From contig NZ_KB217478.1 in NCBI RefSeq assembly GCF_000331305.1, positions 5,801,595 through 5,865,594 on the forward strand: 64,000 nt of DNA, in the 5' to 3' direction. The notes beneath the pieces were generated by a model. The model worked only from the letters and a program-made list of their open reading frames with translations. It ran no database searches and had not been told where the DNA came from. The translations under genes were made by a program, and so were the position numbers. Shown here in pieces: positions 4,838 to 19,059 of this stretch (position 1 is its first letter; every line of letters begins with the position of its first letter). The DNA comes from Calothrix sp. PCC 7103. Its GTDB lineage: Bacteria; Cyanobacteriota; Cyanobacteriia; Cyanobacteriales; Nostocaceae.

Positions 4838-4872
4838 AATCCCCGTCACTTCTTGTGTGGCGGGGATTTTTT
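4838..4872. terminator. Bidirectional hairpin terminator between porin and kinase
   Basis: Stem AAATCCCCGTCAC / GTGGCGGGGATTT with a short loop, followed by a T-run on the plus strand and T-rich sequence on the minus strand. It lies between the convergent porin and kinase genes and can serve both. Confidence 0.85.
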
Positions 4873-6334
4873 AGCTAGTAACTTTCAATTTATAAATGCG
4901 TTCCTTGAATTTTTGCGCCCTTTCTTCATTAGGAATTTCAGATACCAAAGTTTCTATTAATTGGTTTGGACTAGAATGGGGATGTTTTGCTAAAGCTTTT
5001 TCGACAAGAACACTAGCAATAGGTCCAATAAAACTAGTTAATTCTCGTCGGCAATTATTGAGAAACTCTGGATTACTGATTGCTGGACAATCTACTGTTG
5101 ATTGCGAGTGGAATGAATTTTGCAGCTTTTGTATATTGGTTTTTTCTGGTAGTTTAACTCGATTTCTAAATTCATGCGCGCGTATACGGTTAGGTATTTC
5201 TGCTGATACTGAGTCAAGAAGTTCTTCTGCTGTTATATGTGGAGATTTTGCTAAAGCCTGTTTTATCAAAACACTAGCAAATGGTCCAATGAAACTTGTT
5301 AACTCTTGCTGGACATAATCTAAATATTCTGTGTTAAAAGAAACTGGTGCTTGGGTATCTAATTTTGTAGGCGCCTGATTTTGTGACTTCGATTCAAACA
5401 ATTGTATTGGTCGTGGTTCACTAATAGTTACTTTACTATTAGTTACTTTACTATTAGTTACTTTACTAGGTGTGACATTACTAGGCGTGACATTAAGTTC
5501 AAGGATGAGTTCTTGGGCTGATTGGTAACGCTCGGTAGGCACTTCTGCTAACATTTTGTTTAGTGTGTTAGCAAAAGAAGTACTAATTTTAACATAAGAC
5601 TGCCATTTCCATTCTAGCGAGTCATCTATTAAGAATTGTGGCATTCTCCCACTTAAAAGTACAATAGCACAAACAGCAAGTGCATAAATATCACTGCTAG
5701 GATAACATTTTCCTAAGCGTAACTGTTCGGGTGGAGAATAACCAAATTTTCCTACAACCGAACCATACAACGAAAAATTATTATTTGCAGGATTAGCAGA
5801 TAAAAGCTGCGTGAATTTCTGCTTGACTACCCCAAAATCAATCAATACAGGTTGGGATTGATTTTGGGGAAGCATAATATTATCAAGCGAAATATCCCGG
5901 TGGATTATATTGAGGTTATGAATATAATCAAGTATGGGTAATATTTTTAACAGCCATTCTTTAACTTCGACCTCAGAAAAAGGTTTGCGTTTCTGAGTAA
6001 GACGCTCGTGTATAATTTGTGAGTAACTTTTACCGTTGATATATTCCTGTACGATAAATAATCGCTCCCCATCGGTTACCCAAGCTAAAAATTTGGGAAT
6101 ATGAGGATGTTCTATTTGGTATAAAACTTTTGCTTCTCTCTCGAATAATTCCCTAGATTTAAGTATAAGTTCAGCGTTTGTTGTTGCTGGTACAAACTCT
6201 TTTAATACACATTGTTCATCGAAACGCTGTGTATCAGTCGCTAAATAGGTTCGTCCGAACCCACCTTGTCCAAGAGTTCGATTTATTAGATAACGATTGT
6301 TGATTAGAGTTCCTGGCTTTATTTCTGTAATCAT
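4871..6334 (-). CDS. Ser/Thr protein kinase with duplicated C-terminal domain
   Basis: Hanks-type kinase of 487 residues. Residues about 12-280 hold the full catalytic set: GQGGFG loop, VLKEF lysine, IHRDISLDNIML catalytic loop and LIDFG magnesium site. After a linker with a short TPSKVTNSKV-type repeat (about 280-305, tandem in the DNA at 5415-5495) come two copies of a module of about 60 residues (about 336-394 and 420-480). Both contain QELTSFIGP/RELTSFIGP, then ASVL, ALAK and a LVSEIPN/SVSAEIPN stretch. That module recurs in cyanobacterial signalling proteins and its role is unknown to me. The next gene upstream on this strand encodes an MFS protein with an FHA domain, a phosphothreonine reader, so the two may be functionally linked. 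Confidence 0.9.
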   Translation of the reverse strand: MITEIKPGTLINNRYLINRTLGQGGFGRTYLATDTQRFDEQCVLKEFVPATTNAELILKSRELFEREAKVLYQIEHPHIPKFLAWVTDGERLFIVQEYINGKSYSQIIHERLTQKRKPFSEVEVKEWLLKILPILDYIHNLNIIHRDISLDNIMLPQNQSQPVLIDFGVVKQKFTQLLSANPANNNFSLYGSVVGKFGYSPPEQLRLGKCYPSSDIYALAVCAIVLLSGRMPQFLIDDSLEWKWQSYVKISTSFANTLNKMLAEVPTERYQSAQELILELNVTPSNVTPSKVTNSKVTNSKVTISEPRPIQLFESKSQNQAPTKLDTQAPVSFNTEYLDYVQQELTSFIGPFASVLIKQALAKSPHITAEELLDSVSAEIPNRIRAHEFRNRVKLPEKTNIQKLQNSFHSQSTVDCPAISNPEFLNNCRRELTSFIGPIASVLVEKALAKHPHSSPNQLIETLVSEIPNEERAQKFKERIYKLKVTS

Positions 6335-6459: not shown

Positions 6460-8106
6460 CTACGCAATATCAAACATGAATGTTACCATGTCTTTGCGAC
6501 CGAGTGAAAAGCAAAGACCAGGTTTTAACTTATACCAAACTCCTGGTAGTGTTGGGTATTTATTTATGAAAACACCGTTAGAACTTCTCAAATCTTGAAT
6601 ATAGTAATCATTCCCATCAAAACGTATTTGAGCGTGCATACGTGAGACAACGTGAGAATTTGGAAAATCAGAAGTATCAATATCCACAGGAATTTTACCA
6701 TTGCGTTTACCGATAGTAATTACATCGAACTCTTCTGGTAGTTCAATTGTTTTATTGGTTTGCATGTGGATAAGTTGTGGAGTTGGGTGTTGTAAAATTG
6801 TCGGTGATGCTGTGGCTAGTTCTTCTTCTGGTACCGACAGATGTGGTGGTGGCGCCGACATATGTGGTGGCGCCGCTATATGTATAGTTTTTGCGGTAAA
6901 GCTAAATACTTTAGTAGTAAGGAAATAATTGAAGACAGCAAATGAAATTAGTGAAAAAACGGCGCTGCTGTAAAATACTGATTGTATTCCCCAATATTTG
7001 AATGCAAGACTTCCTAGAAATGGACCGAGTGTTTGACCCCATGATACAAGAGTTAAGTTTATTGCAGTAAATCCTCCACGAGATTCGGAATTCGCAAGTC
7101 CTGCTAGTAATGACTGTGAAGTAGGAAGCGACAGACCCTGTGCAACACCCAGCAGTAACATCGGAATAAATAGCAACCAAAAGTTAGAAACAAAGGGAAA
7201 AATAAGAAGCGCGCAGGCAAATACTAGAAACGAGAGTTTGATTAGTTTGATTTCAGAAATATTTTGCAGTAAACGTCCAAGTTGGGAAGCAACAACCGCG
7301 AGGGAAATTGACATACTAGCGAGAATTAAACCATTTTGTGCATCCGATGTTTGAAACTTTTGTGCGGCAAAAAATGGAATATAAGTTAAGCATAAGGTTT
7401 GCAGTAAAAATAATGACATCACTGCAAATAACAATCCAATTACCGGACGAGTGTTAATGCTTTTCCAAGTACTTTTTAAATAAGGTTTTAATTTGAACTT
7501 CTCAGTACGGTGTTGTCTTGGCAACTTTAGCATTACTATTGAGAATAGCGCTAGCGGCACGGCGAGCAAAGCAGCTAAAAATGTATACCGCCAGTTAAGC
7601 CCACCTAATACCCCACCAAGTAGAGGAAATATTGCCCCGCTAATACCAATTAAGCTAGCATTAAAAGCCATCGCCATACCTAGCGTTCTGCCACGGTAAA
7701 GGTCGCCGATAAGAGTGACTTGTAGCGGTTCTAAACTAGCGGCGCCAACACCTTGTAATAATCGCCATCCTAAATGATTTGTAAAGATAGATGTCAAACC
7801 ACTGAAGGCACCGCCAGCAGCAAATAATAATAGTGAAGGAATTAAAATTACTTTTCTACCTACAATATCAGCTAATATTCCAATTATTGGAGTAATAATT
7901 GCACTGGGTAACTGAAAAAGAGTTGATATCCAAGAAGCTTGGTCGGCAGAAATATTAAAAGCATTTTGGATAGTAGGTAAAACTGGATTGTAAATTGTTC
8001 CCCCTAAAATCCCCATCAACGTAACAAAATTAATAATATAGAAGTTTTTATCAGTAAAGATGTTAGTGTTACTTTTTGGTATGCTTCTGGTAGTAGGTGG
8101 GTTCAT
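6460..8106 (-). CDS. MFS exporter fused to a C-terminal FHA domain
   Basis: Probable drug/metabolite exporter. I choose the ATG at 8106 (MNPPTTRS, 548 residues), because the 24 extra upstream residues run into a dispersed palindrome. Residues about 20-410 make 12 membrane segments of the DHA1-like MFS type, with an early DIVGRKVILIPS loop (motif A) and WRYTFLAALLAVPLAL. A proline-rich linker with repeated APPPH-type segments (about 420-445) leads to an FHA domain (about 463-548) with GKRNGKIP, SRMHAQIRF and RSSNGVFIN core motifs. FHA domains bind phosphothreonine, so transport may be controlled by a Ser/Thr kinase; one is encoded next door. It is the last gene of the bisindole locus and resembles the divergent MFS gene at 17830 (shared TLI.DLY.G...AM..N segment). 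Confidence 0.9.
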   Translation of the reverse strand: MNPPTTRSIPKSNTNIFTDKNFYIINFVTLMGILGGTIYNPVLPTIQNAFNISADQASWISTLFQLPSAIITPIIGILADIVGRKVILIPSLLLFAAGGAFSGLTSIFTNHLGWRLLQGVGAASLEPLQVTLIGDLYRGRTLGMAMAFNASLIGISGAIFPLLGGVLGGLNWRYTFLAALLAVPLALFSIVMLKLPRQHRTEKFKLKPYLKSTWKSINTRPVIGLLFAVMSLFLLQTLCLTYIPFFAAQKFQTSDAQNGLILASMSISLAVVASQLGRLLQNISEIKLIKLSFLVFACALLIFPFVSNFWLLFIPMLLLGVAQGLSLPTSQSLLAGLANSESRGGFTAINLTLVSWGQTLGPFLGSLAFKYWGIQSVFYSSAVFSLISFAVFNYFLTTKVFSFTAKTIHIAAPPHMSAPPPHLSVPEEELATASPTILQHPTPQLIHMQTNKTIELPEEFDVITIGKRNGKIPVDIDTSDFPNSHVVSRMHAQIRFDGNDYYIQDLRSSNGVFINKYPTLPGVWYKLKPGLCFSLGRKDMVTFMFDIA

Positions 8107-8143
8107 AGTATTGATTTTAGATTTATTAATGGTTTGACATAAT

Positions 8144-8171
8144 GTAGAGACCGAATATATTCGGTCTCTAC
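8144..8171. repeat. GTAGAGACC palindrome copy 1
   Basis: Perfect 28-base palindrome starting GTAGAGACCGAATA. The same element with small changes lies at 10011, 19272, 44345 and 48414, with a variant at 27359. It sits between the PG-binding gene and the MFS-FHA gene. Confidence 0.85.
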
Positions 8172-8191
8172 AATTCACGTTTAATTCATGT

Positions 8192-8416
8192 TTAAGCTCG
8201 TGATAAAGCCATTCCTAACGCTTCTCCAGTTTGGCGCCCAACTACTCCGTCAGTAGTTAAGTTGTTGTCTTGCTGAAACTTTATAACAGCTTGTTCAGTA
8301 TTAGCACCGAAATCACCGTCAATTGCTCCAACGTTATATCCTAATCTTGATAAATCTCCTTGTAGTCTTTGTACGTCTTGACCATTGGCGCCGCGTTGTA
8401 AGGTTGTTGGGTTCAT
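8192..8416 (-). CDS. Small peptidoglycan-binding-domain protein
   Basis: A 74-residue protein that is almost entirely one PG_binding_1 domain: LQRGANGQDVQRLQGDLSRLGY, then IDGDFGANTEQAVIKFQQDN and a final DGVVGRQT. There is no signal peptide or catalytic domain. It lies between a P450 and the MFS-FHA gene on the same strand, so it is probably co-transcribed with the metabolite locus. A direct enzymatic role is unlikely; it may help locate a partner at the cell wall, which is inference only. Confidence 0.85.
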   Translation of the reverse strand: MNPTTLQRGANGQDVQRLQGDLSRLGYNVGAIDGDFGANTEQAVIKFQQDNNLTTDGVVGRQTGEALGMALSRA

Positions 8417-8597
8417 GATTTATGACTCCTGTCATTAATTTTGTTGATATTTATTCATAGGGGTGGGATTTTGAGAGTATGCATCTCCTCATTCCCATTC
8501 CACTAATAATTGAGTAAAGCCACGAAATATAATCGTCGGAACATGCATGAATTCTTGATTTGGGCAAAGCCGTAAGTTCGGCAATCTCTGAGACATT

Positions 8598-9986
8598 TTA
8601 ATTGACTCGTTGCTTGACTATTACTTTAATGCCCTTGTTGGGTTGTAAAGTAATTGTTGCTTCGGGAGTAATTGTCTGACCTGGAACGAGAGTTATTTCA
8701 AACTTTTGGGCAATTGTTGCTAGTAATAACACTGACTCCATTAGCGCAAAACTTTTGCCTATACAAATACGTGGCCCATCTCCAAATGGTATGTAAACAC
8801 CTCTAGGAAGTTGTTTTTCTAAGTCGCTAGCCCAACGTTCTGGATTAAATACTTCTGGCTGTTTAAAGTAGCGATTACTACGATGCATTACCCATTGGCT
8901 CATAATGATTGTACAGCCAGCAGGTACATGATAATTGCCGATTTCACAGTCCCTAGTGGTTTCACTCACCATATTCCACACAACTGGGAAAAGCCGCATT
9001 GACTCTTTAATTACCATATTGGTGTAAGGCAAAGCAGAGAGGTCTGCAACTGTAGGAGAGCGATCGCCTAATACTTCTTTAAGCTCTTTTTGTAACTTAG
9101 TTTGTACTTCGGGGTGTTGGGATAAAAGCATCCATGTCCAAGCCAAGGTATTGGCGCTGGTTTCATGACCTGCAAAAATAAGGGTGGCAATTTCATCTCG
9201 CAATTGTTTATCGCTCATCTGACTGCCATCATCTTCATCCCGCGCTTGCATCATCATCGACAGCAAATCACCTGTATCTTCACCACTTGCACGTCGTTGG
9301 TTAATAATTTTGTAAATATGTTTGTCCATCTCCCCAACGGCATATTTGTAACGCAAATTTGATGGGGTAGGAAATTGCTCTGGGAGGGAAACTGGGGACT
9401 TCCGCCTTGCTAAAAACCACTCTGCTGCTATGCTCATCGCTTGTGCAACAGCATAAGCTTGATTATCTGTAACATCACTGCTGAATAAAGTCTTCATCAC
9501 AATATTGAATGTGAGACGCATCATATCAGCGTTAATATCCCTTGTTTCTCCATCTTGCCAGGTAAGGAGCATTTTATTTGTGTAATCAACCATTACTTCT
9601 CCGTAACTCCCTATCCGCTTTTGATGGAACATCGGTTGGGCTAAACGTCTTTGACGAAACCAGGTTTCTCCTTCACTGACTAAAAGTCCTTGTCCAAGTA
9701 AAGCGTTAAGGTTTTTCAATGCTTGAGCTTTGCCGAATAACTCCCGATCTTTAAGGATTTGTTCAATATAATTAGGATTTGTTACAAAGATTGTTGGGCT
9801 GTTACCTAAACGAAGGGGAACAATGTCACCATATTGCTGGGCACATTGGGTCATAAAGCCAAGTGCGTCTTTACCAAACTCAATTACGTTACCCAAAATA
9901 AAATTTCCTTTGGGTCTTGGTAGGGTGAAAACATCTTGAATTTTGTTTAAGTTATTAGATAGAGTTTGTTTTGAATTTATCATCAT
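8598..9986 (-). CDS. Cytochrome P450, CYP110/CYP120-like
   Basis: Haem-thiolate monooxygenase of about 462 residues; I take the ATG at 9986 rather than the TTG nine bases upstream. Visible are a proline-rich PRPKGNFILGN entry, an AGHETS oxygen-binding I-helix (about residue 272), KESMR as the ExxR motif (about 327), and the haem signature FGDGPRICIG with its cysteine near 407. The overall sequence resembles the CYP110/CYP120-type P450s common in filamentous cyanobacteria, which accept fatty acids, terpenes or aromatic products. In this locus it is a candidate tailoring enzyme or one of the ring-forming P450s. No dedicated ferredoxin gene is nearby. Confidence 0.92.
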   Translation of the reverse strand: MMINSKQTLSNNLNKIQDVFTLPRPKGNFILGNVIEFGKDALGFMTQCAQQYGDIVPLRLGNSPTIFVTNPNYIEQILKDRELFGKAQALKNLNALLGQGLLVSEGETWFRQRRLAQPMFHQKRIGSYGEVMVDYTNKMLLTWQDGETRDINADMMRLTFNIVMKTLFSSDVTDNQAYAVAQAMSIAAEWFLARRKSPVSLPEQFPTPSNLRYKYAVGEMDKHIYKIINQRRASGEDTGDLLSMMMQARDEDDGSQMSDKQLRDEIATLIFAGHETSANTLAWTWMLLSQHPEVQTKLQKELKEVLGDRSPTVADLSALPYTNMVIKESMRLFPVVWNMVSETTRDCEIGNYHVPAGCTIIMSQWVMHRSNRYFKQPEVFNPERWASDLEKQLPRGVYIPFGDGPRICIGKSFALMESVLLLATIAQKFEITLVPGQTITPEATITLQPNKGIKVIVKQRVN

Positions 9987-10010
9987 TTTTTCCAAATAAT
10001 TATAGTAAAT

Positions 10011-10038
10011 GTAGAGACCGAATATCTTCGTTCTCTAC
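10011..10038. repeat. GTAGAGACC palindrome copy 2
   Basis: Imperfect copy of the 28-base palindrome (the right arm reads TTCGTTCTCTAC), between the P450 at 8598 and the VOC gene. Confidence 0.75.
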
Positions 10039-10052
10039 AACACACTCTTTGG

Positions 10053-10424
10053 TTATTCTTGACAATCGATAGTGAATGGGTTGCCTTCTGTATCAACTCC
10101 TTCAGCAATTTTTACTCCTGGAGAAGGGCAACGAATTGGACTTAGCTTTAAACCGCGAAGCGTTAAAGTATGATGTGCGCTTTCAATATCACTAACGCTG
10201 AATGCAAGTTTTGGTCTATCTTTACCAATTTGCGTTTCTAAATTGCCATGCAATACTAAAGTGCATTCACCCGTAGAAAACTCTACCCATTGTTTATCTT
10301 TACGGTCATCTATACTGAGTTTGTTTTTTATCGTCAAACCCAATATATCCCGATAAAATTCTGTTTGTTTATCAATATCTCTAACATACAGAATCGTCTT
10401 TGTTAAGCCTTTAATCATGCTCAT
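10053..10424 (-). CDS. VOC-superfamily (glyoxalase/bleomycin-resistance fold) protein
   Basis: A 123-residue single-domain protein with the paired beta-alpha-beta-beta-beta modules of the vicinal-oxygen-chelate fold: LYVRDIDKQTEFYRDILGLTI, then LAFSVSDIESAHHTL and a C-terminal VDTEGNPFTI. VOC proteins act as metal-dependent isomerases or dioxygenases, or as binding proteins that sequester toxic metabolites. It lies 23 bases from the P450 at 10448 on the same strand, so it is likely co-expressed. In a biosynthetic locus a self-protection or tailoring role is plausible; substrate and metal use cannot be stated. Confidence 0.85.
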   Translation of the reverse strand: MSMIKGLTKTILYVRDIDKQTEFYRDILGLTIKNKLSIDDRKDKQWVEFSTGECTLVLHGNLETQIGKDRPKLAFSVSDIESAHHTLTLRGLKLSPIRCPSPGVKIAEGVDTEGNPFTIDCQE

Positions 10425-10447
10425 GGTATTATATTTTACTAATGTTG

Positions 10448-11689
10448 CTAGGGTTTTCTGTAACCAACTTTTAATTGTTTAGGTCCATGAAAAATGATAT
10501 TATTTGCCCATTTAATATTGTCTTCTAGCAAATGCAATTCGGGTAAACGGTTAAGTAAAACATTTAAAGCAATTTGACCTTCTGCGCGCGCTAAAGAAGA
10601 ACCCAGACAATAGTGAATACCACCACCAAAACCACAACTTTTAGTATCTTCACGCTGAATATCAAAGACTTCTGGATTTTTATAGCGCGCTGGGTCGCGG
10701 TTAGCAGAACCAAGCATAAGACCAACACTATCGCCACGCTTTATTTGTTGGCCACCAATTTCAATATCAGCATATGCCCAGCGTGTAATCATTTGGATAG
10801 GCGTATCGTAACGAATCATTTCTTCGATAGCATTAGGCATGTATTCAGGATGAGAACGCAATAGTTGTAATGCATTAGGGTTACGAAGTAATGCTAGTGT
10901 TCCTTTCGCTATTAAATTAACTGTGGTTTCATGTCCCGCTGTTAATAAGTGAGTACAGGTTGCAACAATTTCTTCATCGGTTAATTTATCTCCTTCGTCC
11001 GCAGCTTTGACTAAGTTAGAAATTAAATCATCTTGAGGATTAGCTCGTCGGTCTGTAATTATCGGCTTAAAGTAGTTGATAAACTCTTGACTGGCTTTTT
11101 CGGCATTTTCGTAAATTGCTGGTGGTGGTTTCAAACGCGATGCACTGGCATTTTGTAAAGCTAGTGCCCATTGACGAAATAATGGGTGGTCGTTGGGGTC
11201 GGCGCCAAGCATCATCGCGATTACCATTATCGGTAGTCGAAAAGCATATTCTTCAACTAAGTCCATTTCCCCACGTGCGTGGACATTATCTAATAAACTA
11301 TCTGCGATTTGGTAAACACAAGGACGTAAGTTTTCAACAACTCTAGTAGTAAAAGCTTTACTAACTAGCGATTTTAAGCGTGTGTGGTCGGGTGGTTCAC
11401 GGAAAACAATCCACTTACTGACCATCGTCAAGAAAGTCTTATACGCTGTCGGTACTGGTGTAGTTTCTGCATCTTCGCGTTTAATAAATTCCCTCCCAAA
11501 TCTCTTGTCTTCCATAATTTTCATGACATCTTCGTAGCGGAAGACGTACCAGGCGCCTTGTAATTGCGGATTTGAGGATACCCCCCAATGCACTGGGTCT
11601 TGTTCTCGGTAGCGACGGTAATGAGTGTAAGGGTCTGAAATAAATTCTTGAACAAATGGGTTTAATCTTTCAATTGTTGAAGTAGACAT
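10448..11689 (-). CDS. Cytochrome P450, soluble bacterial type; candidate StaP/RebP counterpart
   Basis: A 413-residue soluble P450 with LLTAGHETT in the I-helix (about residue 251), EEMIRYDTP as the ExxR region (about 290), and the haem signature FGFGG-like CGFGGGIHYCLG with cysteine near 361. Length and class match StaP/RebP, the P450s that convert chromopyrrolic acid to the indolocarbazole core by oxidative C-C coupling and decarboxylation. That assignment rests on the neighbouring VioB/RebD-like and RebC-like genes, since P450 substrates cannot be read from motifs. It is packed with GST upstream (23 bases) and VOC downstream (23 bases). Confidence 0.9.
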   Translation of the reverse strand: MSTSTIERLNPFVQEFISDPYTHYRRYREQDPVHWGVSSNPQLQGAWYVFRYEDVMKIMEDKRFGREFIKREDAETTPVPTAYKTFLTMVSKWIVFREPPDHTRLKSLVSKAFTTRVVENLRPCVYQIADSLLDNVHARGEMDLVEEYAFRLPIMVIAMMLGADPNDHPLFRQWALALQNASASRLKPPPAIYENAEKASQEFINYFKPIITDRRANPQDDLISNLVKAADEGDKLTDEEIVATCTHLLTAGHETTVNLIAKGTLALLRNPNALQLLRSHPEYMPNAIEEMIRYDTPIQMITRWAYADIEIGGQQIKRGDSVGLMLGSANRDPARYKNPEVFDIQREDTKSCGFGGGIHYCLGSSLARAEGQIALNVLLNRLPELHLLEDNIKWANNIIFHGPKQLKVGYRKP

Positions 11690-11712
11690 TATCTATTACC
11701 TGGTGAGATTTT

Positions 11713-12384
11713 TTATCTTGAAAGTGGCGCCAATTCCACTGGATACTTTAATTTGGAGAGCATCTGTGTCATTTGCTCGTATCCGGAATTAAAAGTCTGT
11801 ATCACAGATGGTCGGGATTCTAAACGTTTGACATAATTCGTCAAATTAGATAAATGCTCGTAGTTATAAACGATACGCAAATAGGCTAAAGTCGGAGCCG
11901 CAGCGCAATCAGAAGAAGAAAATTCATCTACAAGCCAGGTACGGGAAGCAAGTCGCTCATTAAGTAATCCTAGTGCAGTCTCCATTAAAGAGCGTGCTTT
12001 GATAACATTAGCGGCGCCTCGTGCTTCAATTGGACGTTGAGTGTCACTAAATAATGCTTCGCGTCCAGTATTGATATAAACATCAATAATTCGCTCTAGC
12101 ATCCGTGTTTCTAAAGCTTTTTCTGAATTTTCAGGAATAAGCTGCGGGCAATTAGGGTAGGTTTTATCAAGGTATTCAATGATGGTGCTAGCTTCAAATA
12201 ATACTGTTCCATCATTAGTAACTAAGGTAGGTACTTTGCCAAAAGGGTTAATATTTAAATAGTTTTGACGTACCTCTGGATCGAAAAGATTAACTTCAAC
12301 TGGTGTAAAATTAATCTCTTTTTCATAAAGAGCAATCAGTACTCTTTGCGAATAGGATGAGGCTGGGGCATAGTAAAGCTTCAT
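11713..12384 (-). CDS. Glutathione S-transferase family protein
   Basis: A 223-residue cytosolic GST. The N-terminal thioredoxin-like half has MKLYYAPASSYSQRV (catalytic serine/tyrosine region), NPFGKVPTLV with the cis-proline, and LFEASTIIEYLD for glutathione binding. The rest is the all-alpha domain. It lies between the RebC-like flavoprotein and the P450 genes on the same strand. It may conjugate or isomerise a pathway intermediate or detoxify the product, which is inference. A dispersed repeat separates it from the flavoprotein gene. Confidence 0.9.
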   Translation of the reverse strand: MKLYYAPASSYSQRVLIALYEKEINFTPVEVNLFDPEVRQNYLNINPFGKVPTLVTNDGTVLFEASTIIEYLDKTYPNCPQLIPENSEKALETRMLERIIDVYINTGREALFSDTQRPIEARGAANVIKARSLMETALGLLNERLASRTWLVDEFSSSDCAAAPTLAYLRIVYNYEHLSNLTNYVKRLESRPSVIQTFNSGYEQMTQMLSKLKYPVELAPLSR

Positions 12385-12445
12385 ATCATGATCACTGCGT
12401 ACTCTTTAATCATCTAGGGGTGAACAAAAAAATTTATGCAATGCT

Positions 12446-12622
12446 AGTGGTCTGTGTCAAAAGTTTTGGTTGGTAGGAAAATTGGCAACGGATGATGAAC
12501 GGATGTAACGGATAAGTAATTTTAAATAACTGGACGAAAGTTTGTAGCAAATAAATCATCCGTTACATCCGTTGAATCCGTTGCTAATCAACCCACCAAA
12601 ATTAATGACATAAACTACTAGG
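12446..12622. repeat. MITE-like inverted-repeat element
   Basis: The outer arms read TGTGTCAAAAGTTTTGGT at the left and, inverted, ACCAAAATTAATGACATA at the right. The inner arms are GCAACGGATG...GTAACGGAT and their inverse (12485-12584). The outer arm also occurs at 30963-30981 and 31078-31096. No coding capacity. It lies between the GST and FAD monooxygenase genes. Confidence 0.7.
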
Positions 12623-12623
12623 T

Positions 12624-14231
12624 TTATCGGTTTCCTGTTATTTTGTCGATTAATGCATTTACATCGTTTGGCAAAGCATCACCTCTCCACGCTACATGCC
12701 CATCAGGTCTGACTAATACAAAATTACGTTCATAAAGCTGGGCAATTTTTGTGTCATTTATTGTGTCATTTATATAGTGAATGTTGAGAGGGACATTTTT
12801 GTCTTGGCAAACTTGAGCAAATGTTTCAACTCCTTGCATGGCGCCAAAACACATTAATACAAATCCATGACCGAATAAATCAAGCGTAGATTTTCCAGGT
12901 TCTAACCAAGCATGAGGCGCCCGACAACCAGGGTAACTAGTTTGCTGCCATTCAAAAGGATTATCACTAGGAGGTGTACCATCTGGTTGAATAATTGGAG
13001 ATTCATACCGGAAGCCAAAATGAACTCCTGGCGCCTCAAACTCGCGCTTAACTCCACTGCGCTCCATACCTTGAGCCATTTCAGCACGAATTTGGGCACC
13101 AACAGGAGAATCAGTCATTATTACTGGTGGAACTTCGCGCTTTTGGGTTCGTTGCAAGTTTTTATTTGCTTCTTCAAGATTACGTACAGCTATGGCACGT
13201 CTTTCTATTTCATAACTATCGAGTAAATTGGTGCCACCCCAACCTTTAAGAGTTGCGGCAAGTTTCCAACCTAAATCAACTGCATCACCAATACCTGTAT
13301 TCATACCAAAACCACCAGAAGGTGATAGGGTGTGAGCAGAGTCACCAACAAAAAATATACGTCCATCTCGAAAACGGTCGGCAACTCTATGAGTAAGATG
13401 CCAAGGTTGATTAGAAACTATTTCAAATGGCGTATCAATAGATATAGCCGCGCGAATTGCTTCAGTAGCATCACGCACTTCACCATTTTCTTTTGGCTTC
13501 AGAATCAGGCGATATAAAGACTTTCCATCAACGGCGCGTAGTGGTTCTTGAATTATTGGGTTGACTAAAAAATACACCATTGCATGATGCTCACCCATTT
13601 GAGTTGCAAGCTCAGGTGCTTTGAAAACAACACTTTGAAATACCTGGGTATCGTGTAGTTTGGGAGCATCAATACCACATTTCTTACGTACCATACTACG
13701 GGCGCCGTCGCAAGCGACCATATATTGAGCATGAATTACATTTACTGTTCCTGTTTTAAGACATGTAACAGTAGCAGCAACATCTTCACCTGTTTGCTCA
13801 AAATCATCTAATTGACACAAAAAGCGTATTTGTCCATTGGGATATTCTCCCAAGAAATTTTGAAATACAGGTGCAAACCAGTTTTGCGGACATACTTGCT
13901 CAGTTTCTGGTGTGTACTCAGGAAGTACACGTTTTGCATAGGATGGAAAATGCGCGCGGTATATTTCGTGTCCACCAACAGAAGTTACCCAAGCAACATC
14001 TAAAGTGTGATTAACATCCCAACCGGCATCACGTATTTGCTGGGCAATACCCCAACGACGGCAAAACTCCATCGAACGCAGTCCAACTGTGCTAACTTTT
14101 GGGTCTGTTACTTCTCCATCGGTTTGTTCAATCAAGATACAATCTATACCTTGGTAGCGTAGTTCTGCTGCCATCGCTAAACCCACAGGGCCACCACCAA
14201 TTATTAAGACATCTGTTTTGATATCGTTCAT
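12624..14231 (-). CDS. FAD-dependent monooxygenase, RebC/StaC-like
   Basis: Aromatic flavoprotein hydroxylase of 535 residues. An ADP-binding GGGPVG (residues 12-17) opens the Rossmann fold, there is a middle DG-type motif (ACDGARS), and GDSAHTLSPSGGFGMNTGIGDAVDLGWKLA binds the FAD ribityl. The C-terminal thioredoxin-like domain carries VLVRPDGHVAWRGD. Recalled RebC features are shared: AWVTSVGGHEIYR near the N terminus, EAPGVHFGFRYES and PHAWLEPGKSTLDLFGHGF. RebC/StaC act with the P450 on the intermediate after chromopyrrolate and set the oxidation state of the indolocarbazole. The gene starts 12 bases after the VioB/RebD-like stop, so the two are almost certainly co-transcribed. A simple phenol hydroxylase is the alternative. 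Confidence 0.85.
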   Translation of the reverse strand: MNDIKTDVLIIGGGPVGLAMAAELRYQGIDCILIEQTDGEVTDPKVSTVGLRSMEFCRRWGIAQQIRDAGWDVNHTLDVAWVTSVGGHEIYRAHFPSYAKRVLPEYTPETEQVCPQNWFAPVFQNFLGEYPNGQIRFLCQLDDFEQTGEDVAATVTCLKTGTVNVIHAQYMVACDGARSMVRKKCGIDAPKLHDTQVFQSVVFKAPELATQMGEHHAMVYFLVNPIIQEPLRAVDGKSLYRLILKPKENGEVRDATEAIRAAISIDTPFEIVSNQPWHLTHRVADRFRDGRIFFVGDSAHTLSPSGGFGMNTGIGDAVDLGWKLAATLKGWGGTNLLDSYEIERRAIAVRNLEEANKNLQRTQKREVPPVIMTDSPVGAQIRAEMAQGMERSGVKREFEAPGVHFGFRYESPIIQPDGTPPSDNPFEWQQTSYPGCRAPHAWLEPGKSTLDLFGHGFVLMCFGAMQGVETFAQVCQDKNVPLNIHYINDTINDTKIAQLYERNFVLVRPDGHVAWRGDALPNDVNALIDKITGNR

Positions 14232-14243
14232 ATGTTGTAAGTC

Positions 14244-17200
14244 CTAATGTAATAAAGATTGAGGAGATTTTGCTAAGTCATCAAAAAACTTGGTATAAAA
14301 CTCAAACATTTCACACACCGTATTTGGCACAACTTCGTTTTCTCTGGCTTTATTGCTCAATGCTTCAAATCTGCGTGATATTGTTGTCATTGCTACTTCT
14401 GGCGCCGGAATATAAGCAGGTGTAGAAATTTCAAACGATGGTCCCGCAGTTCTACCACGTTTTCCTGAAGGCAAACTCATTAATAACTCACCCAAAGGAC
14501 GCATCATACCTGTCATTACATCAATGCCAGCATTCATTAATTTGGAACGTCTTAAACTACCTGTTGGCATCAATCCAAAATGCTGTACCATTAGCTGCAT
14601 CATCAGAAAATAAGTTTCGTTAAATATTTCCATGACTGCACGAGTTTCGGGTACTGTCACAACATTAGTGCTGTAATCTCGGTGGTATAGCGAAGGATTT
14701 CGTAATGCAGGGTAAGAAGGATTCCACGGTACTTGACGTCCTGTTTCTGGGTCAGACATTTGTTCTGATGCTAATGAGTCAGCCAAGCGACGGAATTTTT
14801 GATAGTGAGAACGCTCGAATGAAGGTGATTGTTTGTTGGCGCCTTCTCCTTGTTCAGTTATTAAGTCTACAGCAAAGAGTGCGCTGTTTAAATCATCGAC
14901 TTGTAGCTGGTAATCTGGGTGTACTTTATTAAAATCATCGCGCATAAATAAACGATGTTCGCCACCAGTAGAACCTTTTTTAACAACAAATAAATCAGGA
15001 ATATTTTGCAGTGCTTCGCGGATTTGGCGGTATAGTTCGCTTAAAGAGCCATAATTATGTAAGCGGTCAGCGGTGAAGTCTTTTGATACAGGTTCGTTGG
15101 CTAAATTTGCTTCTAAAAAGTCGGGCATTTCTAAATGCATAAACCGCTGTAAAGATGATGCATTCAATGGTTCGAGCGCAAAATCTACATCGATTGGAAA
15201 ACGCGCGTTTAGTGTACTCCAATTAGGTACTGCTGGGTAGAAAGGTTCACCAATTGCCATCAATATATTATTGACCATCAAAAAGTGTATCATTTCCTCG
15301 CGAGAAACTTCAAGTAGCACTCCTCGCATCCCGTAATTATGTACTTCTTTTCCGTCACCGCAAGCTAATTGTAGTTGCTGAGGAGTCCATAAACCTCGAC
15401 GTACATATTCTTCCCCAGTAACGTAATTAGGTACTGAATACCCTGCATAAATATATTGCAGCATCACGGTTACTTCCAATTCAGCAGCTTGTCGCAGTGC
15501 TGTTACTAATTCTTCACGAGTTTGAATACTGCGTTGAAGTTGTTTTGGTTCGCTTTCAACAGGTGGAACATAACCAATTCGCTGTTGATTTTGCAGGAAT
15601 TTACGCAATAAATTTGTTTTTGGTTCAGACATATCACGACTAGGAGGCATATAATAAGTTTTATATTTATTTTTGGGGTCAGACATTTGCCACATTAAGC
15701 GCGCATAAGTTTCGACTTTGCACTGGTCGGCGAGACTAAAAACATCGACCTTCATAAATGAAAAGCTAAACTCATAGAATGCCAAGATGTGTTTGTAAAT
15801 TAAGTTAAAATCTACAGCCTCATCAGGAATATCTTCTAAATACCAATCATCACCTAACACCCGCACGGCAAAGAAACCAGCACCTGCCCAAAAATTAAGA
15901 TTATCGTCATTATCATAAGCAATTTCGGGGTAATCAACTAATTCATCGGGGTTGACGGTAAGTAAAACCTTTGCACTACCTGACTTGGCGCCACGTATTG
16001 TCACCCAACCACGTCCTTTTGAGTCAGTAGAAATTTTGCCCAAAGGAGCAAATTCTCCAATTTCGGCGCCAATACCAGGTTTAAAATGTACAATTGGCAT
16101 CGACGAACACCACGGAAACTCGAAAGTTTTTCCAGCATTTTCTGCAAAGCTTTCAAACTCATATTTAAGTTGAGGAAAAGCTTTGGGATTATAAAACTGA
16201 CGTAAGTAAACAGAAACTGGTGCAGGGCGCCCTCTAACAAAAGACCGCACTTCTAATTCAACGGCATGGTCTTCACCATGTTTCCAATTAGGATGTTCAA
16301 TAAATAAACATCCATCATCTACCTGAAGATTGATTTCTTGTTCAGTAAGGACAATTTGCGGTTGTTTATCGGCGCCATATCCAACAATACATAACCCTTC
16401 GTCTTCTATCTCAGCAATTCCCGATTCAAATTGTACAGGAATATCTATAACTCCACTTGTCTTTCGATGCGCTTCAAGTTGATACGCTTGTTTTGGTATA
16501 CGCGCAATTAATCTTTGACTGTTTATTGTACGCAATTCTAAATCGCCCAAATCAAGCTTAGAAGTAATTGGGTGAACTGGGCCTTTTTCAGGTTTGGCAG
16601 CACGTCCAACTCCAGGTACAGCCGTAATCATGTTTAAACTGACACCAGTATGAGTAACTTGAAGCGTCAAATTAGAAAGTGACTTTTGGGATTTACCAAG
16701 GTGACAAGGAGTTAGTAGGCGCCCGTGAGGATAAGTACGAAGTTCGTCTTTACACCACAAACCAATCGTTCCGTGCAATTCCCAAAAACTGGGTGAGTCA
16801 GGTTGAACTGGTGCGGACATATTACTAATGCTAAATTGCACCACCAACCCCAGCACATCATCACGGCTCATAGCTTGTTGTAACATTGATACCGTAGAAG
16901 ATTGAGCGACATCACCCCACAAAAAATCTTCGCTCTCTTTAGGTATTGCAAACTGATAAACAGCAGCGCGTTGAAATTGTTTATTTAAACAGTGTTCAGG
17001 TAAATTATGTAAATGATTAAAATCTTGCCAGCGCGCTAACTGCATACCAGTGATGGGAGCAGAAACCATATACGGAACTTCATGCGAACCACCTTGTCTG
17101 CCAAAACTTAGCTGACCTAGCATAATTGTATCAGTCCAATTTGATGCAGGGTCACATTCAAAAAAGCGGGCGCGGTTAAAAGTTGTTTTCACATAATCAT

Positions 17201-17564
17201 TATAATGACCCCATAAATCAACACTGCGTCCCACCACAGGGTCATTTTGGTCAACTTCTCCAAACGCGCGTTGAGTGCTAATTATTTGTGCTTCGATAGA
17301 AAAATGACCATTACCGCCAAAATTCCACCCAGTTGCCATACTAAAGGCGCCGTTTTCATCGTATTCTCCTTCAGAATTGAAGCGAGGACCCAAATTATAG
17401 AGATACTCATGGTATTTAGATGAAGGTAAACTGCTATCAACAGGTTTACCATTCATATAAACAGTGTTGCTACTGACATCAACATTTCCATACTTATGTC
17501 CAGTAGGAGCATGAATACGCGCGAAACCCTGGAAATGCAGACGGGGAAAATCTAAAATACTCAT
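14244..17564 (-). CDS. VioB/RebD/StaD-like bisindole (iminophenylpyruvate/chromopyrrolate-type) synthase
   Basis: Large enzyme of 1106 residues; recalled VioB and RebD are about 1000. The N terminus MSILDFPRLHFQGFARIHAPT and LWGHYNDYVKTTFNRARF match the recalled VioB/RebD start. The core about 680-900 is a ferritin-like domain with ELEVTVMLQYIYAGYSVPNY and EVSREEMIHFLMVNN, whose Glu/His residues would bind iron. GSLRRSKLMNAGIDVMTGM and SLPSGKRGRTAGPS lie near 1000-1040. The family couples two indole-pyruvate imines oxidatively, giving chromopyrrolic acid (RebD/StaD) or the violacein precursor (VioB). No VioE-like gene is present, while P450 and RebC-like genes are, which favours an indolocarbazole route. 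The promoter must lie in the 17565-17829 gap. Confidence 0.9.
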   Translation of the reverse strand: MSILDFPRLHFQGFARIHAPTGHKYGNVDVSSNTVYMNGKPVDSSLPSSKYHEYLYNLGPRFNSEGEYDENGAFSMATGWNFGGNGHFSIEAQIISTQRAFGEVDQNDPVVGRSVDLWGHYNDYVKTTFNRARFFECDPASNWTDTIMLGQLSFGRQGGSHEVPYMVSAPITGMQLARWQDFNHLHNLPEHCLNKQFQRAAVYQFAIPKESEDFLWGDVAQSSTVSMLQQAMSRDDVLGLVVQFSISNMSAPVQPDSPSFWELHGTIGLWCKDELRTYPHGRLLTPCHLGKSQKSLSNLTLQVTHTGVSLNMITAVPGVGRAAKPEKGPVHPITSKLDLGDLELRTINSQRLIARIPKQAYQLEAHRKTSGVIDIPVQFESGIAEIEDEGLCIVGYGADKQPQIVLTEQEINLQVDDGCLFIEHPNWKHGEDHAVELEVRSFVRGRPAPVSVYLRQFYNPKAFPQLKYEFESFAENAGKTFEFPWCSSMPIVHFKPGIGAEIGEFAPLGKISTDSKGRGWVTIRGAKSGSAKVLLTVNPDELVDYPEIAYDNDDNLNFWAGAGFFAVRVLGDDWYLEDIPDEAVDFNLIYKHILAFYEFSFSFMKVDVFSLADQCKVETYARLMWQMSDPKNKYKTYYMPPSRDMSEPKTNLLRKFLQNQQRIGYVPPVESEPKQLQRSIQTREELVTALRQAAELEVTVMLQYIYAGYSVPNYVTGEEYVRRGLWTPQQLQLACGDGKEVHNYGMRGVLLEVSREEMIHFLMVNNILMAIGEPFYPAVPNWSTLNARFPIDVDFALEPLNASSLQRFMHLEMPDFLEANLANEPVSKDFTADRLHNYGSLSELYRQIREALQNIPDLFVVKKGSTGGEHRLFMRDDFNKVHPDYQLQVDDLNSALFAVDLITEQGEGANKQSPSFERSHYQKFRRLADSLASEQMSDPETGRQVPWNPSYPALRNPSLYHRDYSTNVVTVPETRAVMEIFNETYFLMMQLMVQHFGLMPTGSLRRSKLMNAGIDVMTGMMRPLGELLMSLPSGKRGRTAGPSFEISTPAYIPAPEVAMTTISRRFEALSNKARENEVVPNTVCEMFEFYTKFFDDLAKSPQSLLH

Positions 17565-17829
17565 TTTAAGAAAATCACAATCTGGTTACATATATGGATA
17601 GGGGTCACAAATATAGTTTATGCATGAGACTCCTCTCTCTGTGTCTCTGTGTCTCTGTGTCTCTGTGTCTCTGTGTCTCTGTGGTAAAAAGAAGTACATG
17701 CCATTGCATAACCCCTTAATGTTAAGCAATATTAAGGCATATAAAGTTTATATTTTGGTTGGGCACAGTGCATAAACCAAAATTCCTGCTTGTAGAAACC
17801 AATAGTTCACCAATAAAAGAATTACAACT
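17565..17829. promoter_or_regulatory. Divergent promoter region with 8-bp tandem repeat
   Basis: The only gap between the divergently transcribed bisindole synthase and MFS genes. It holds about six copies of the octamer TGTGTCTC (17636-17684), an expansion of the dispersed ACCACAGAGACACAG repeat, and then AT-rich sequence before the MFS start. Specific promoter boxes cannot be assigned with confidence. Confidence 0.5.
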
Positions 17830-19059
17830 ATGGGTTCGTTATCAAGCTTTAACAATAAAGATGCAGCCAAGATTAACTTTGACGGCAGATTCTTCTTAAT
17901 CATTAGTATCACTTTAATAGCTACAAGCGGAGTCTTTAGCATTAATCCAATCATACCAAATATTGCCCAAAGCCTAAATATTCCTACCGAGCAAATAGGA
18001 ATGATAATGACAAGCTTTTTAGTACCAACTACATTTGGTTGTTTTATATTTGGAGCATTAGCAGACCGTATTGGAACAAAAAAAATACTAATTCCTTCGC
18101 TAATATTATTTGGACTTGCTGGAATATTATGCGCGTCAGCTAATAGTTTTCGTAGCTTACTAGAATGGCGCTTTTTATCTGGTATTGGCGCCGCTAGTTT
18201 AGAAGCATTAGAACTGACATTAATCAGTGACTTATACAGTGGTAAAATGCTAACAAGTGCAATGGGTATTAACTCAGCAATGATTGGAGTTGCCGCAACA
18301 ATTTATCCGATAATAGGCGGAATGCTGGCTGAATTTAGTTGGCGCTATGTATTCTTACTATCAGCATTAGCTTTTCCAGTAGCCTTCTTAATTGCAACAA
18401 AGCTTAAGCTAGCAAACAAGTCTCAGACAAATGAAAATATTAATTTAAAATTCTACTTTCAAACCACTTGGAAAAACGTTAAAAACCCTCAAGTCTTAGG
18501 ATTACTATTCACAGTCTTTTCCATGTTCATTATAGAATTAGGCGCCTGCTACATCTTCCTTCCAATGTACATGCAAACATCTCTTGGCGCTTCGAGTGCA
18601 GAAATTGGCATTCTTCTTGCATCTGAGTCAATAGCTTTTGCCCTAGTAGCTTCTCAACTCGGTTTATTAACTCGTTGGTTAAATGAAAAAACTCTTATCA
18701 GCTTAGGCTTTGTAATCTGTGCAATTGCGCTATTAATCATCCCAACAATTCACAGTATTTGGTTAATATTAATTCCCTGCTTTCTATTTGGTATATCACA
18801 AGCCTTATCCTTACCACCATTACAATCAATGTTAGCAGAAAAAGCACCCGAAGGCTACCGAGGCGGATTTATGGCACTGAATGTAACAGTTCAATCATTT
18901 GGAAGAGCATTAGGACCACTGTTTTCAGGTATTACATTTGGTTTTGTGGGAATACAAGGAGTATTCTATGCAAATGCAGCACTCGCCATTATCACAATTG
19001 TAATCCTCAACTTACTATTCACTCGCAAACACAAAACTTACAAACATTCCAAAATATAA
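17830..19059 (+). CDS. MFS exporter divergent from the bisindole locus
   Basis: A 409-residue major facilitator protein with 12 predicted membrane segments. The early GALADRIGTKKILIPS loop is motif A of drug:H+ antiporters, and GIGAASLEALELTLISDLY is a second conserved stretch. It has no FHA domain but otherwise resembles the exporter at 6460, suggesting duplication. Divergent orientation from the synthase gene with one shared promoter gap makes it a likely efflux pump for the locus product, as RebT is in the rebeccamycin cluster. A hairpin terminator follows at 19114. Confidence 0.9.
   Translation: MGSLSSFNNKDAAKINFDGRFFLIISITLIATSGVFSINPIIPNIAQSLNIPTEQIGMIMTSFLVPTTFGCFIFGALADRIGTKKILIPSLILFGLAGILCASANSFRSLLEWRFLSGIGAASLEALELTLISDLYSGKMLTSAMGINSAMIGVAATIYPIIGGMLAEFSWRYVFLLSALAFPVAFLIATKLKLANKSQTNENINLKFYFQTTWKNVKNPQVLGLLFTVFSMFIIELGACYIFLPMYMQTSLGASSAEIGILLASESIAFALVASQLGLLTRWLNEKTLISLGFVICAIALLIIPTIHSIWLILIPCFLFGISQALSLPPLQSMLAEKAPEGYRGGFMALNVTVQSFGRALGPLFSGITFGFVGIQGVFYANAALAIITIVILNLLFTRKHKTYKHSKI

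Follow-up and report, generated by a model that had tools for sequence, protein, structure and literature searches.

The 64,000-nucleotide stretch of Calothrix sp. PCC 7103 analysed here (the window; contig C7, positions 5801595-5865594, from a genome of 11.58 Mb in 12 contigs) very probably carries an indolocarbazole gene cluster that is under selection and has its own precursor supply. This reading is based on family identities, synteny, phylogeny, diagnostic residues and purifying selection, from which we infer the reactions, the oxidation state of the aglycone, the use of an oxidase in trans, the tailoring steps and the gating of export. Indolocarbazoles are built from two tryptophans and form the core of staurosporine and rebeccamycin. 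The same genome appears, on sequence comparison, to hold the branch point to the purple pigment violacein as well, so that both arms of the pathway would be present in one cell. A preliminary description, made from the sequence alone, had proposed a bisindole or indolocarbazole-like locus at 6460-19059; that reading was supported, but the description overlooked a trp operon, an unlinked oxidase and a second, VioE-linked cluster, and the extent it gave was too small, as the trp genes and a porin gene reach the left edge of the window and the trp genes continue beyond it.

The cluster region aligned in pieces with that of Calothrix sp. PCC 7716 at 93-96% DNA identity, and the VioB, RebC and StaP homologues of the window were 95-99% identical to their counterparts there. 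The ratio of non-synonymous to synonymous substitution rates (dN/dS) against PCC 7716 was 0.02-0.28 in the nine genes tested, namely those for the kinase (part), the MFS-FHA exporter, the second P450, the VOC-fold protein, the StaP-type P450, the glutathione S-transferase (GST), the RebC and VioB homologues and the second MFS transporter (the set left out the trp genes, the porin gene and a 74-amino-acid open reading frame). These nine genes are therefore under purifying selection and are not chance frames.

Family placement of the synthase

The 1106-amino-acid protein encoded at 14244-17564 matched TIGR04492 (VioB) at 952.7 bits and contained a ferritin-like domain (PF12902) at residues 690-928. 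A scan of 84,980 species genomes gave 129 relatives, of which the best 80 loci were kept (34 cyanobacterial); the closest named relative among these best 80 of 129 was that of Calothrix sp. PCC 7716, at 96% identity. A tree was constructed from 81 proteins out of 86 sources, with three lacking a 900-amino-acid frame and two duplicates left out; Tolypothrix brevis locus L077 (contig JAHHIJ010000036.1) and genome G300 were taken as one record and given a single count in the trees. The 32 cyanobacterial sequences formed one group (Shimodaira-Hasegawa-like approximate likelihood ratio test, SH-aLRT, 99), as did 38 actinobacterial StaD/RebD-type sequences (SH-aLRT 100) and 11 VioB sequences from the proteobacterial family Oxalobacteraceae (SH-aLRT 100). 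Residues E697, E756, E757, H760, E869, H870, E904 and H920 of the ferritin-like region were each present in 81 of 81 rows. On the evidence of this tree the protein is a member of the VioB/RebD/StaD family, as previously proposed, and neither a position outside the VioB/RebD family nor a loss of the ferritin-like iron ligands, two of the three outcomes named as evidence to the contrary, was observed.

Within the phylum, five of 386 genomes surveyed had a match to the family (against none of 14 controls), and both ends of the protein were found only in the source genome and T. brevis (G300). Two 527-amino-acid frames (G413:C1:7239130-7240611 and G416:C190:13900-15381) are 55% identical to synthase residues 84-569 only and may represent free-standing N-terminal synthase halves. 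Searching the PDB with the synthase sequence returned no match at E values up to 1; as the AlphaFold model was middling (predicted local distance difference test 73.6, predicted template modelling score 0.57) and Foldseek returned nothing from the PDB at E ≤ 0.001, a structural argument was not made.

Organisation of the cluster

All of the open reading frames described previously were recovered at their given coordinates and strands, and family searches gave the following features (window coordinates):

1-749, + strand: TrpC, indole-3-glycerol phosphate synthase (NCBIfam TrpC 373.7 bits, cut-off 370; frame 63-749)
746-1543, + strand: TrpA, tryptophan synthase alpha (TIGR00262 306 bits, cut-off 102)
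1565-2806, + strand: TrpB, tryptophan synthase beta (TIGR00263 626 bits, cut-off 392)
3091-4731, + strand: OprB-type outer-membrane porin with SLH domain (PF04966, PF00395)
4871-6334, - strand: Ser/Thr protein kinase (PF00069 120.7 bits)
6460-8178, - strand: MFS exporter with C-terminal FHA domain (PF07690, PF00498)
8192-8416, - strand: peptidoglycan-binding-domain protein, a separate 74-amino-acid frame (PF01471 72.5 bits)
8598-9995, - strand: second cytochrome P450, putative tailoring enzyme (PF00067 334 bits; best PDB chain 7wzl, 234 bits)
10053-10424, - strand: VOC-fold protein (PF00903)
10448-11689, - strand: StaP/RebP-type P450, predicted to carry out aryl-aryl coupling of chromopyrrolic acid (best PDB match 2z3t, 377 bits; next 313)
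11713-12384, - strand: GST, a cyanobacterial addition (PF13417)
12624-14231, - strand: RebC/StaC-type flavoprotein (best PDB match RebC, 2r0c, 625 bits)
14244-17564, - strand: VioB/RebD/StaD-family predicted imine-dimer (chromopyrrolic acid) synthase (TIGR04492; tree; conserved residues)
17830-19059, + strand: second, divergent MFS transporter (PF07690 210.7 bits)

The GST, the VOC protein, the second P450, the MFS-FHA exporter, the divergent MFS transporter and the peptidoglycan-binding protein were thus confirmed, and the gap between the flavoprotein and synthase genes measured 12 bases, as described. The StaP-like P450 was likewise upheld by its closest solved relative, 2z3t, which we take to be StaP (the PDB listing reads just 'Cytochrome P450').

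Genes near VioB were counted for 32 cyanobacterial loci, taken with up to 10 kb of flank (the duplicate L070 and the fragment L125 were excluded); the counts are minima, many contigs being cut. StaP was found in 19 loci, RebC in 18 and the oxidase in 19, with StaP and RebC together in 11 and all three in eight. Genome-wide, among 33 VioB-bearing cyanobacterial genomes including the source, StaP was matched in 31 (E limit 1e-110), the oxidase subfamily in 31 (1e-60) and RebC in 23 (1e-120). In seven loci (L062, L065, L068, L075, L063, L064 and L069) VioB adjoins RebC, in some with a GST, and StaP is absent from the locus and matched elsewhere in the genome; several of these lineages are, to judge from their names, presumably marine. 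The oxidase, synthase and P450 genes are given as the three conserved genes of indolocarbazole clusters in PMC10851217; in the window cluster the synthase and P450 genes are linked, and the oxidase is unlinked yet of the pathway's clade.

Comparison with 38 actinobacterial loci (flanks of up to 10-12 kb) separated several genes from this core. Homologues of the GST occurred in 23/32 cyanobacterial against 0/38 actinobacterial loci, of the VOC protein in 16/32 against 0/38 and of the MFS-FHA exporter in 16/32 against 0/38 (zero BLAST matches at E ≤ 1e-8 for all three in the actinobacterial set), while the window-type second P450 was found in 5/32 against 0/38 and the kinase in 4/32 against 0/38; the GST, VOC protein and second P450 are thus outside the canonical set, as had been noted. 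The reverse was seen for halogenases (0/32 against 3/38) and glycosyltransferases (1/32 against 19/38). In a locus from a Pseudanabaenales metagenome-assembled genome (MAG; L072, 146-10772), which may encode a glycosylated relative, a synthase split over two frames occurs together with an oxidase, a P450, a methyltransferase-like gene and a glycosyltransferase of macrolide type.

A ring-opened 6-cyano-5-methoxy compound is known from Nostoc. The VOC protein lacks, by eye in the alignment, the usual first metal-binding histidine, so that binding is favoured over catalysis and the protein is perhaps a binding protein. According to PMC10300848, only tjipanazoles J, K, L and M among the tjipanazoles have the fused pyrrole ring; the GST, VOC protein and P450 are candidates for its loss. 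A RidA/L-PSP-family protein was identified by Pfam at L050 20079-20597, and RidA-like genes were found by BLAST in similar positions in ten more loci (L048, L049, L051, L053, L054, L057, L061, L066, L071 and L097); as RidA proteins hydrolyse reactive imines, this placement fits imine chemistry.

The flavoprotein and the predicted aglycone

The flavoprotein matched RebC (2r0c) at 625 bits, and the next enzyme kind in the PDB scored 174 bits; on this difference a simple phenol hydroxylase was rejected and the RebC/StaC-like assignment made previously was retained. Alignments of 2r0c with 4eip, which we take to be the StaC-like variant RebC-10x, differ at ten sites, and these were used as switch sites. 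The window protein is RebC-like at six (E36, Q37, T38, Q117, A231 and R239), StaC-like at three (K46, S48 and V216) and like neither at I241. Across 22 cyanobacterial rows (including two near-duplicate pairs) R239 was found in 22/22, V216 in 22/22 and Q117 in 19/22, and the 12 readable rows from loci with staurosporine-type glycosyltransferase and P450 neighbours had A117 in 12/12 and N239 in 11/12, with T239 in 1/12 (three more rows gave no letters, probably trimmed by the script).

According to PMC10851217, arcyriaflavin A is the outcome with RebC and K252c that with StaC, and because of this product split and the RebC-type sites an arcyriaflavin-type aglycone is favoured with moderate confidence. 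K252c shares its formula, C20H13N3O, with its isomer prodeoxyviolacein. A StaC-like flavoprotein giving the lactam K252c is a possible but distinctly less probable alternative; it would account for K46, S48 and V216, but Q117, A231 and R239 are of RebC type, and the staurosporine-type loci carry other residues at positions 117 and 239.

Tryptophan supply and the unlinked oxidase

The window opens within the trpC gene, whose start lies approximately 88 bases to the left of the edge (longer frame C7:5801507-5802343, L170). Further left are TrpE (C7:5799355-5801550) and a 3-deoxy-D-arabino-heptulosonate 7-phosphate (DAHP) synthase (C7:5798283-5799287; L171, named via similarity to tested relatives). 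The block DAHP synthase-TrpE-TrpC-TrpA-TrpB was found beyond the kinase, as seen from the synthase, in the source genome, PCC 7716, Calothrix HK-06 and T. brevis, the four genomes whose flanks past the kinase were fetched. The porin gene stands between the block and the kinase in the first three, and in T. brevis the same interval is occupied by a porin gene together with a TrpD-like one (PF00591). Blocks of trp genes adjoin VioB in L058, L060, L073 and L074 too. As the genome holds three full-length TrpB copies, that of the window is an extra copy.

No oxidase gene adjoins the synthase gene in the window or in the PCC 7716 cluster. The L-tryptophan oxidase previously listed as missing is thus absent beside the synthase, but the genome search for RebO/VioA-like oxidases that had been suggested found subfamily copies on contigs C9 and C12 (C12:755562, C12:970588 and C9:454, with an equal-score match at C9:280991). 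The equal-score matches, C9:454-1917 and C9:280991-282454, are separated by approximately 280.5 kb on the same 392-kb contig and represent a duplication or an assembly artefact. In an oxidase tree of 63 rows, C9:454, C12:970588 and the single, unlinked oxidase of PCC 7716 grouped with the synthase-linked oxidase of HK-06 (98), and were next joined by the cluster-linked oxidase of Scytonematopsis (100). C12:755562 grouped with the VioE-paired oxidases of the two other Calothrix and with L072 (100). The oxidase of the Nostoc flagelliforme violacein cluster grouped with that of L059 (100), and the VioE-paired oxidases are therefore not one lineage. The dN/dS of the unlinked oxidase was 0.059. A pathway broken by the missing oxidase was rejected on the oxidase tree and the dN/dS values, and the simplest reading of the phylogeny is that the pathway oxidase has moved away and would act in trans.

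A second cluster with VioE and the violacein branch

Contig C12 carries a cluster (L014) of a GST, a second synthase, an oxidase and VioE. Its synthase is 87% identical to that of the window (dN/dS 0.16), its oxidase scored 52 on the VioA model (cut-off 600), and its VioE matched TIGR03650 at 273.9 bits (cut-off 177) and the VioE structures 3bmz/2zf3 at 200 bits. The eight VioE residues that we take to be important (Tyr17, Ser19, Phe50, Asn51, Pro52, Glu66, Ser170 and Arg172) are all kept, by eye. VioE had been described as missing, which is correct for the window cluster but not for the genome. Overlapping frames at L014 7279-8229 and 6215-7375, upstream of the VioE cluster on C12, are transposase- and helicase-like by eye, hinting at mobility of that cluster.

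VioE was found in 5/33 VioB-bearing cyanobacterial genomes and in 2/388 genomes of the order, and in neither case in the 14 controls (0/14). VioC was scored for up to 36 candidates per genome, and exceeded its cut-off of 760 in 2/34 genomes, those of Anabaena azotica and N. flagelliforme; Brasilonema angustatum gave a match of 214 bits, far under it. VioC was not found (E ≤ 1e-60) among the 36 of 62 first-look candidates scored in the source genome, nor among the candidates of PCC 7716 or of the two other VioE-bearing Calothrix. As VioC was not found in the genome, the C12 product, if made, should be without VioC chemistry. VioE stands with VioC (768.5 and 768.4 bits) and VioD (633.7 and 629.2 bits, cut-off 620) in two genomes, A. 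azotica FACHB-119 (L058) and N. flagelliforme FACHB-838 (L060), each with a subfamily oxidase on the same contig. These violacein-type VioB/VioC/VioD/VioE sets (L058 9887-16637 and L060 8133-20854) are accompanied by trp and DAHP synthase genes, and in L060 a DpgA-like ketosynthase gene and a cytochrome-b5-domain gene lie between VioD and VioE. In another genome, G603, VioE and a DevBCA exporter accompany a VioD frame that is truncated at the end of its contig (607.5 bits, under the cut-off); VioC was not found there among the up to 36 candidates scored.

In a VioE tree the six cyanobacterial rows clustered together (100/100), separate from the 11 proteobacterial ones, and a plasmid search for VioE gave no match. 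Transfer of a whole proteobacterial violacein cluster was rejected, as the cyanobacterial synthases group together. The three VioE-linked synthases (L014, L058 and L060) are scattered among StaP-linked ones, with at least three label changes forced by supported branches. Closely related synthases can adjoin different branch enzymes, since those of L060 (VioE) and L059 (StaP, GST) are 92% identical. This distribution suggests repeated branch changes, gains or losses, the number of switches being uncertain with three linked rows. A. azotica additionally has a RebC/StaP cluster that stands apart and includes a synthase of its own (L074), so that two genomes, this one (L058 and L074) and the source genome (window and C12), hold both branches as separate clusters.

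It is improbable that the window synthase works chiefly for VioE, in trans, giving a prodeoxyviolacein-type pigment and not an indolocarbazole. The idea draws on the presence of VioE in the source genome and on Calothrix NIES-4101 and CSU_2_0, each of which has VioE, RebC, StaP and a single full synthase: in the complete NIES-4101 genome the sole full VioB lies 1.66 Mb from an oxidase-VioE pair, and in the fragmented CSU_2_0 MAG the two are on different contigs and may or may not be linked. However, the window synthase forms a contiguous run with RebC, StaP and GST, VioE stands next to the sister synthase on C12, and PCC 7716 keeps the window cluster yet has no VioE match. The oxidase-VioE pairs of NIES-4101 (L131 8453-12264) and CSU_2_0 (L132 4872-8508) have no adjoining VioB and are followed by a protein of 470-476 amino acids, 90% identical between the two, of which the NIES-4101 copy has no Pfam match.

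Evidence against the indolocarbazole reading and remaining alternatives

Several points weigh against a selected indolocarbazole cluster at this locus. The synthase lies under the curated VioB equivalog cut-off of TIGR04492 (952.7 against 1250 bits) and is thus not VioB sensu stricto, and no genome in the 386-genome survey gave a match at that cut-off. The switch sites of the flavoprotein are a mosaic, and RebC was not found at 1e-120 in 10/33 VioB-bearing genomes, so the RebC step is not universal. The oxidase subfamily was not found at 1e-60 in 2/33 of these genomes, one of them a MAG, and the service of the unlinked oxidase to the window cluster is inferred purely from phylogeny. The synthase and oxidase trees were quick searches with SH-aLRT values and no bootstrap, and the programs warned of long branches and uneven composition.

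A true tjipanazole, which would be a chlorinated indolo[2,3-a]carbazole, is very unlikely as the product of the locus. The core enzyme set is that listed in PMC10300848, which makes the tjipanazole-relative hint in the preliminary description reasonable; reports of tjipanazoles come from Tolypothrix and Symphyonema, and the cluster occurs in a Tolypothrix relative. Against this, the tjipanazole set includes a halogenase, and no halogenase homologue was found at 150 bits in any of the 32 cyanobacterial loci or in the window cluster; matches to PF04820 in the source genome were weak (best 53 bits, Pfam cut-off 21), lay outside the window cluster and occurred in 5/14 control genomes too. No glycosyltransferase was recognised in the window cluster either, in agreement with the earlier statement that the locus has neither enzyme. 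A decaying cluster whose oxidase is gone would explain a synthase without an adjoining oxidase in both the window and PCC 7716, but is scarcely tenable given the dN/dS values of the nine genes and of the unlinked oxidase.

Exporters and kinase

The FHA motifs SR.HA and NG..IN were kept in 17/17 aligned exporter rows, with the usual GR replaced by GK in 17/17. The catalytic loop of the kinase reads HRDIS in the alignment in place of the usual HRDxK, and no conclusion on resistance was drawn from its gatekeeper residue (Ile by eye). The kinase adjoins the exporter in the source genome, PCC 7716, HK-06 and T. brevis, and the C. elsteri locus has a 60% homologue; this count is limited, as the sequence of several further loci stops at the exporter or shortly after it. 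A divergent MFS gene near VioB or its oxidase was also found in PCC 7716 (L046), T. brevis (L077) and two Brasilonema loci (L053 and L066). By analogy with the FHA-bearing ABC transporter Rv1747, named in the abstract of PMC5549992, kinase-gated export is plausible. A broader combined proposal, which we consider unlikely, is that one cell runs both bisindole arms from the two sister synthases (window indolocarbazole, C12 violacein) and that the indolocarbazole arm also has a product gauge, in which the product would inhibit the kinase, the phosphorylation state of the kinase would gate the FHA exporter and the pump would open as the drug accumulates.

Proposed pathway

In the indolocarbazole pathway proposed for the window, DAHP synthase, TrpE, TrpC, TrpA and TrpB would provide extra L-tryptophan, which a RebO/StaO-type amine oxidase encoded on C9 and C12 would convert to indole-3-pyruvate imine. 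The VioB/RebD/StaD-type enzyme (14244) would join two imines into the dimer that leads to chromopyrrolic acid, the StaP-type P450 (10448) would link both indoles, and the RebC-type flavoprotein (12624) would convert the unstable product to an arcyriaflavin-A-type aglycone. The GST, VOC protein and second P450 may tailor or shield the product, and export would proceed through the two MFS pumps and the porin, the FHA pump being possibly gated by the neighbouring kinase. On C12, the sister synthase, oxidase and VioE would take the same dimer to a prodeoxyviolacein-type product.

Comparison with known pathways

The tjipanazole, rebeccamycin and staurosporine clusters are described as alike in PMC12842986. 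The tjipanazole enzymes given in PMC10300848 are a tryptophan oxidase, a chromopyrrolic acid synthase-like protein, a P450 and an FAD monooxygenase, plus a tryptophan halogenase. That pathway, from Symphyonema bifilamentata 97.28 (formerly Fischerella ambigua 108b), is like the window cluster cyanobacterial and built from the same core enzyme kinds. However, tjipanazoles are halogenated and some are glycosylated, and the window cluster, unlike the tjipanazole pathway as described, has trp genes, a GST, a VOC protein, an FHA exporter and a kinase. According to PMC8065813, tjp was found by cblaster in 2021 in no genome other than Symphyonema; PMC11392904 includes a PRISM row headed 'maleimide indolocarbazole' that shows a one under each of four columns.

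For the rebeccamycin/staurosporine type, the yardsticks were Pseudonocardia pBCI2-2, S. clavuligerus pSCL4 and a Nocardiopsis plasmid, whose cluster names are presumed from gene content. They share the oxidase, synthase, StaP and RebC/StaC core, with synthases 42-44% identical over 99% of the query. Clusters of this type have sugar and halogenation genes not seen in the window cluster, which for its part has the GST, VOC protein and FHA exporter that went unmatched in the actinobacterial set. The staurosporine/rebeccamycin core thus occurs in some thirty named filamentous cyanobacteria, and the cyanobacterial additions, none of which was seen in the actinobacterial comparison set, are candidates for the missing fused pyrrole ring in several cyanobacterial indolocarbazoles.

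No report of violacein genes in cyanobacteria was among the matches listed in a search of titles and abstract starts of open-licence PMC articles (subscription literature lay outside the search); the word 'violacein' occurs 0 times in PMC4558948, PMC7014017 and PMC8600333, and 'indolocarbazole' 0 times in PMC4558948 and PMC8600333. The violacein pathway of Oxalobacteraceae (L112 and L115-L124) uses the same synthase family as the window, although the proteobacterial VioB proteins form a separate group, 37-39% identical to the window synthase. VioE is found in cyanobacteria as well, and VioC and VioD exceed their NCBIfam cut-offs in two cyanobacterial genomes, which thereby hold VioB-C-D-E sets. 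Together with the StaP-linked clusters, these provide matched enzymes in a natural series, with which it can be asked how the shared imine dimer comes to be directed to one product or another.

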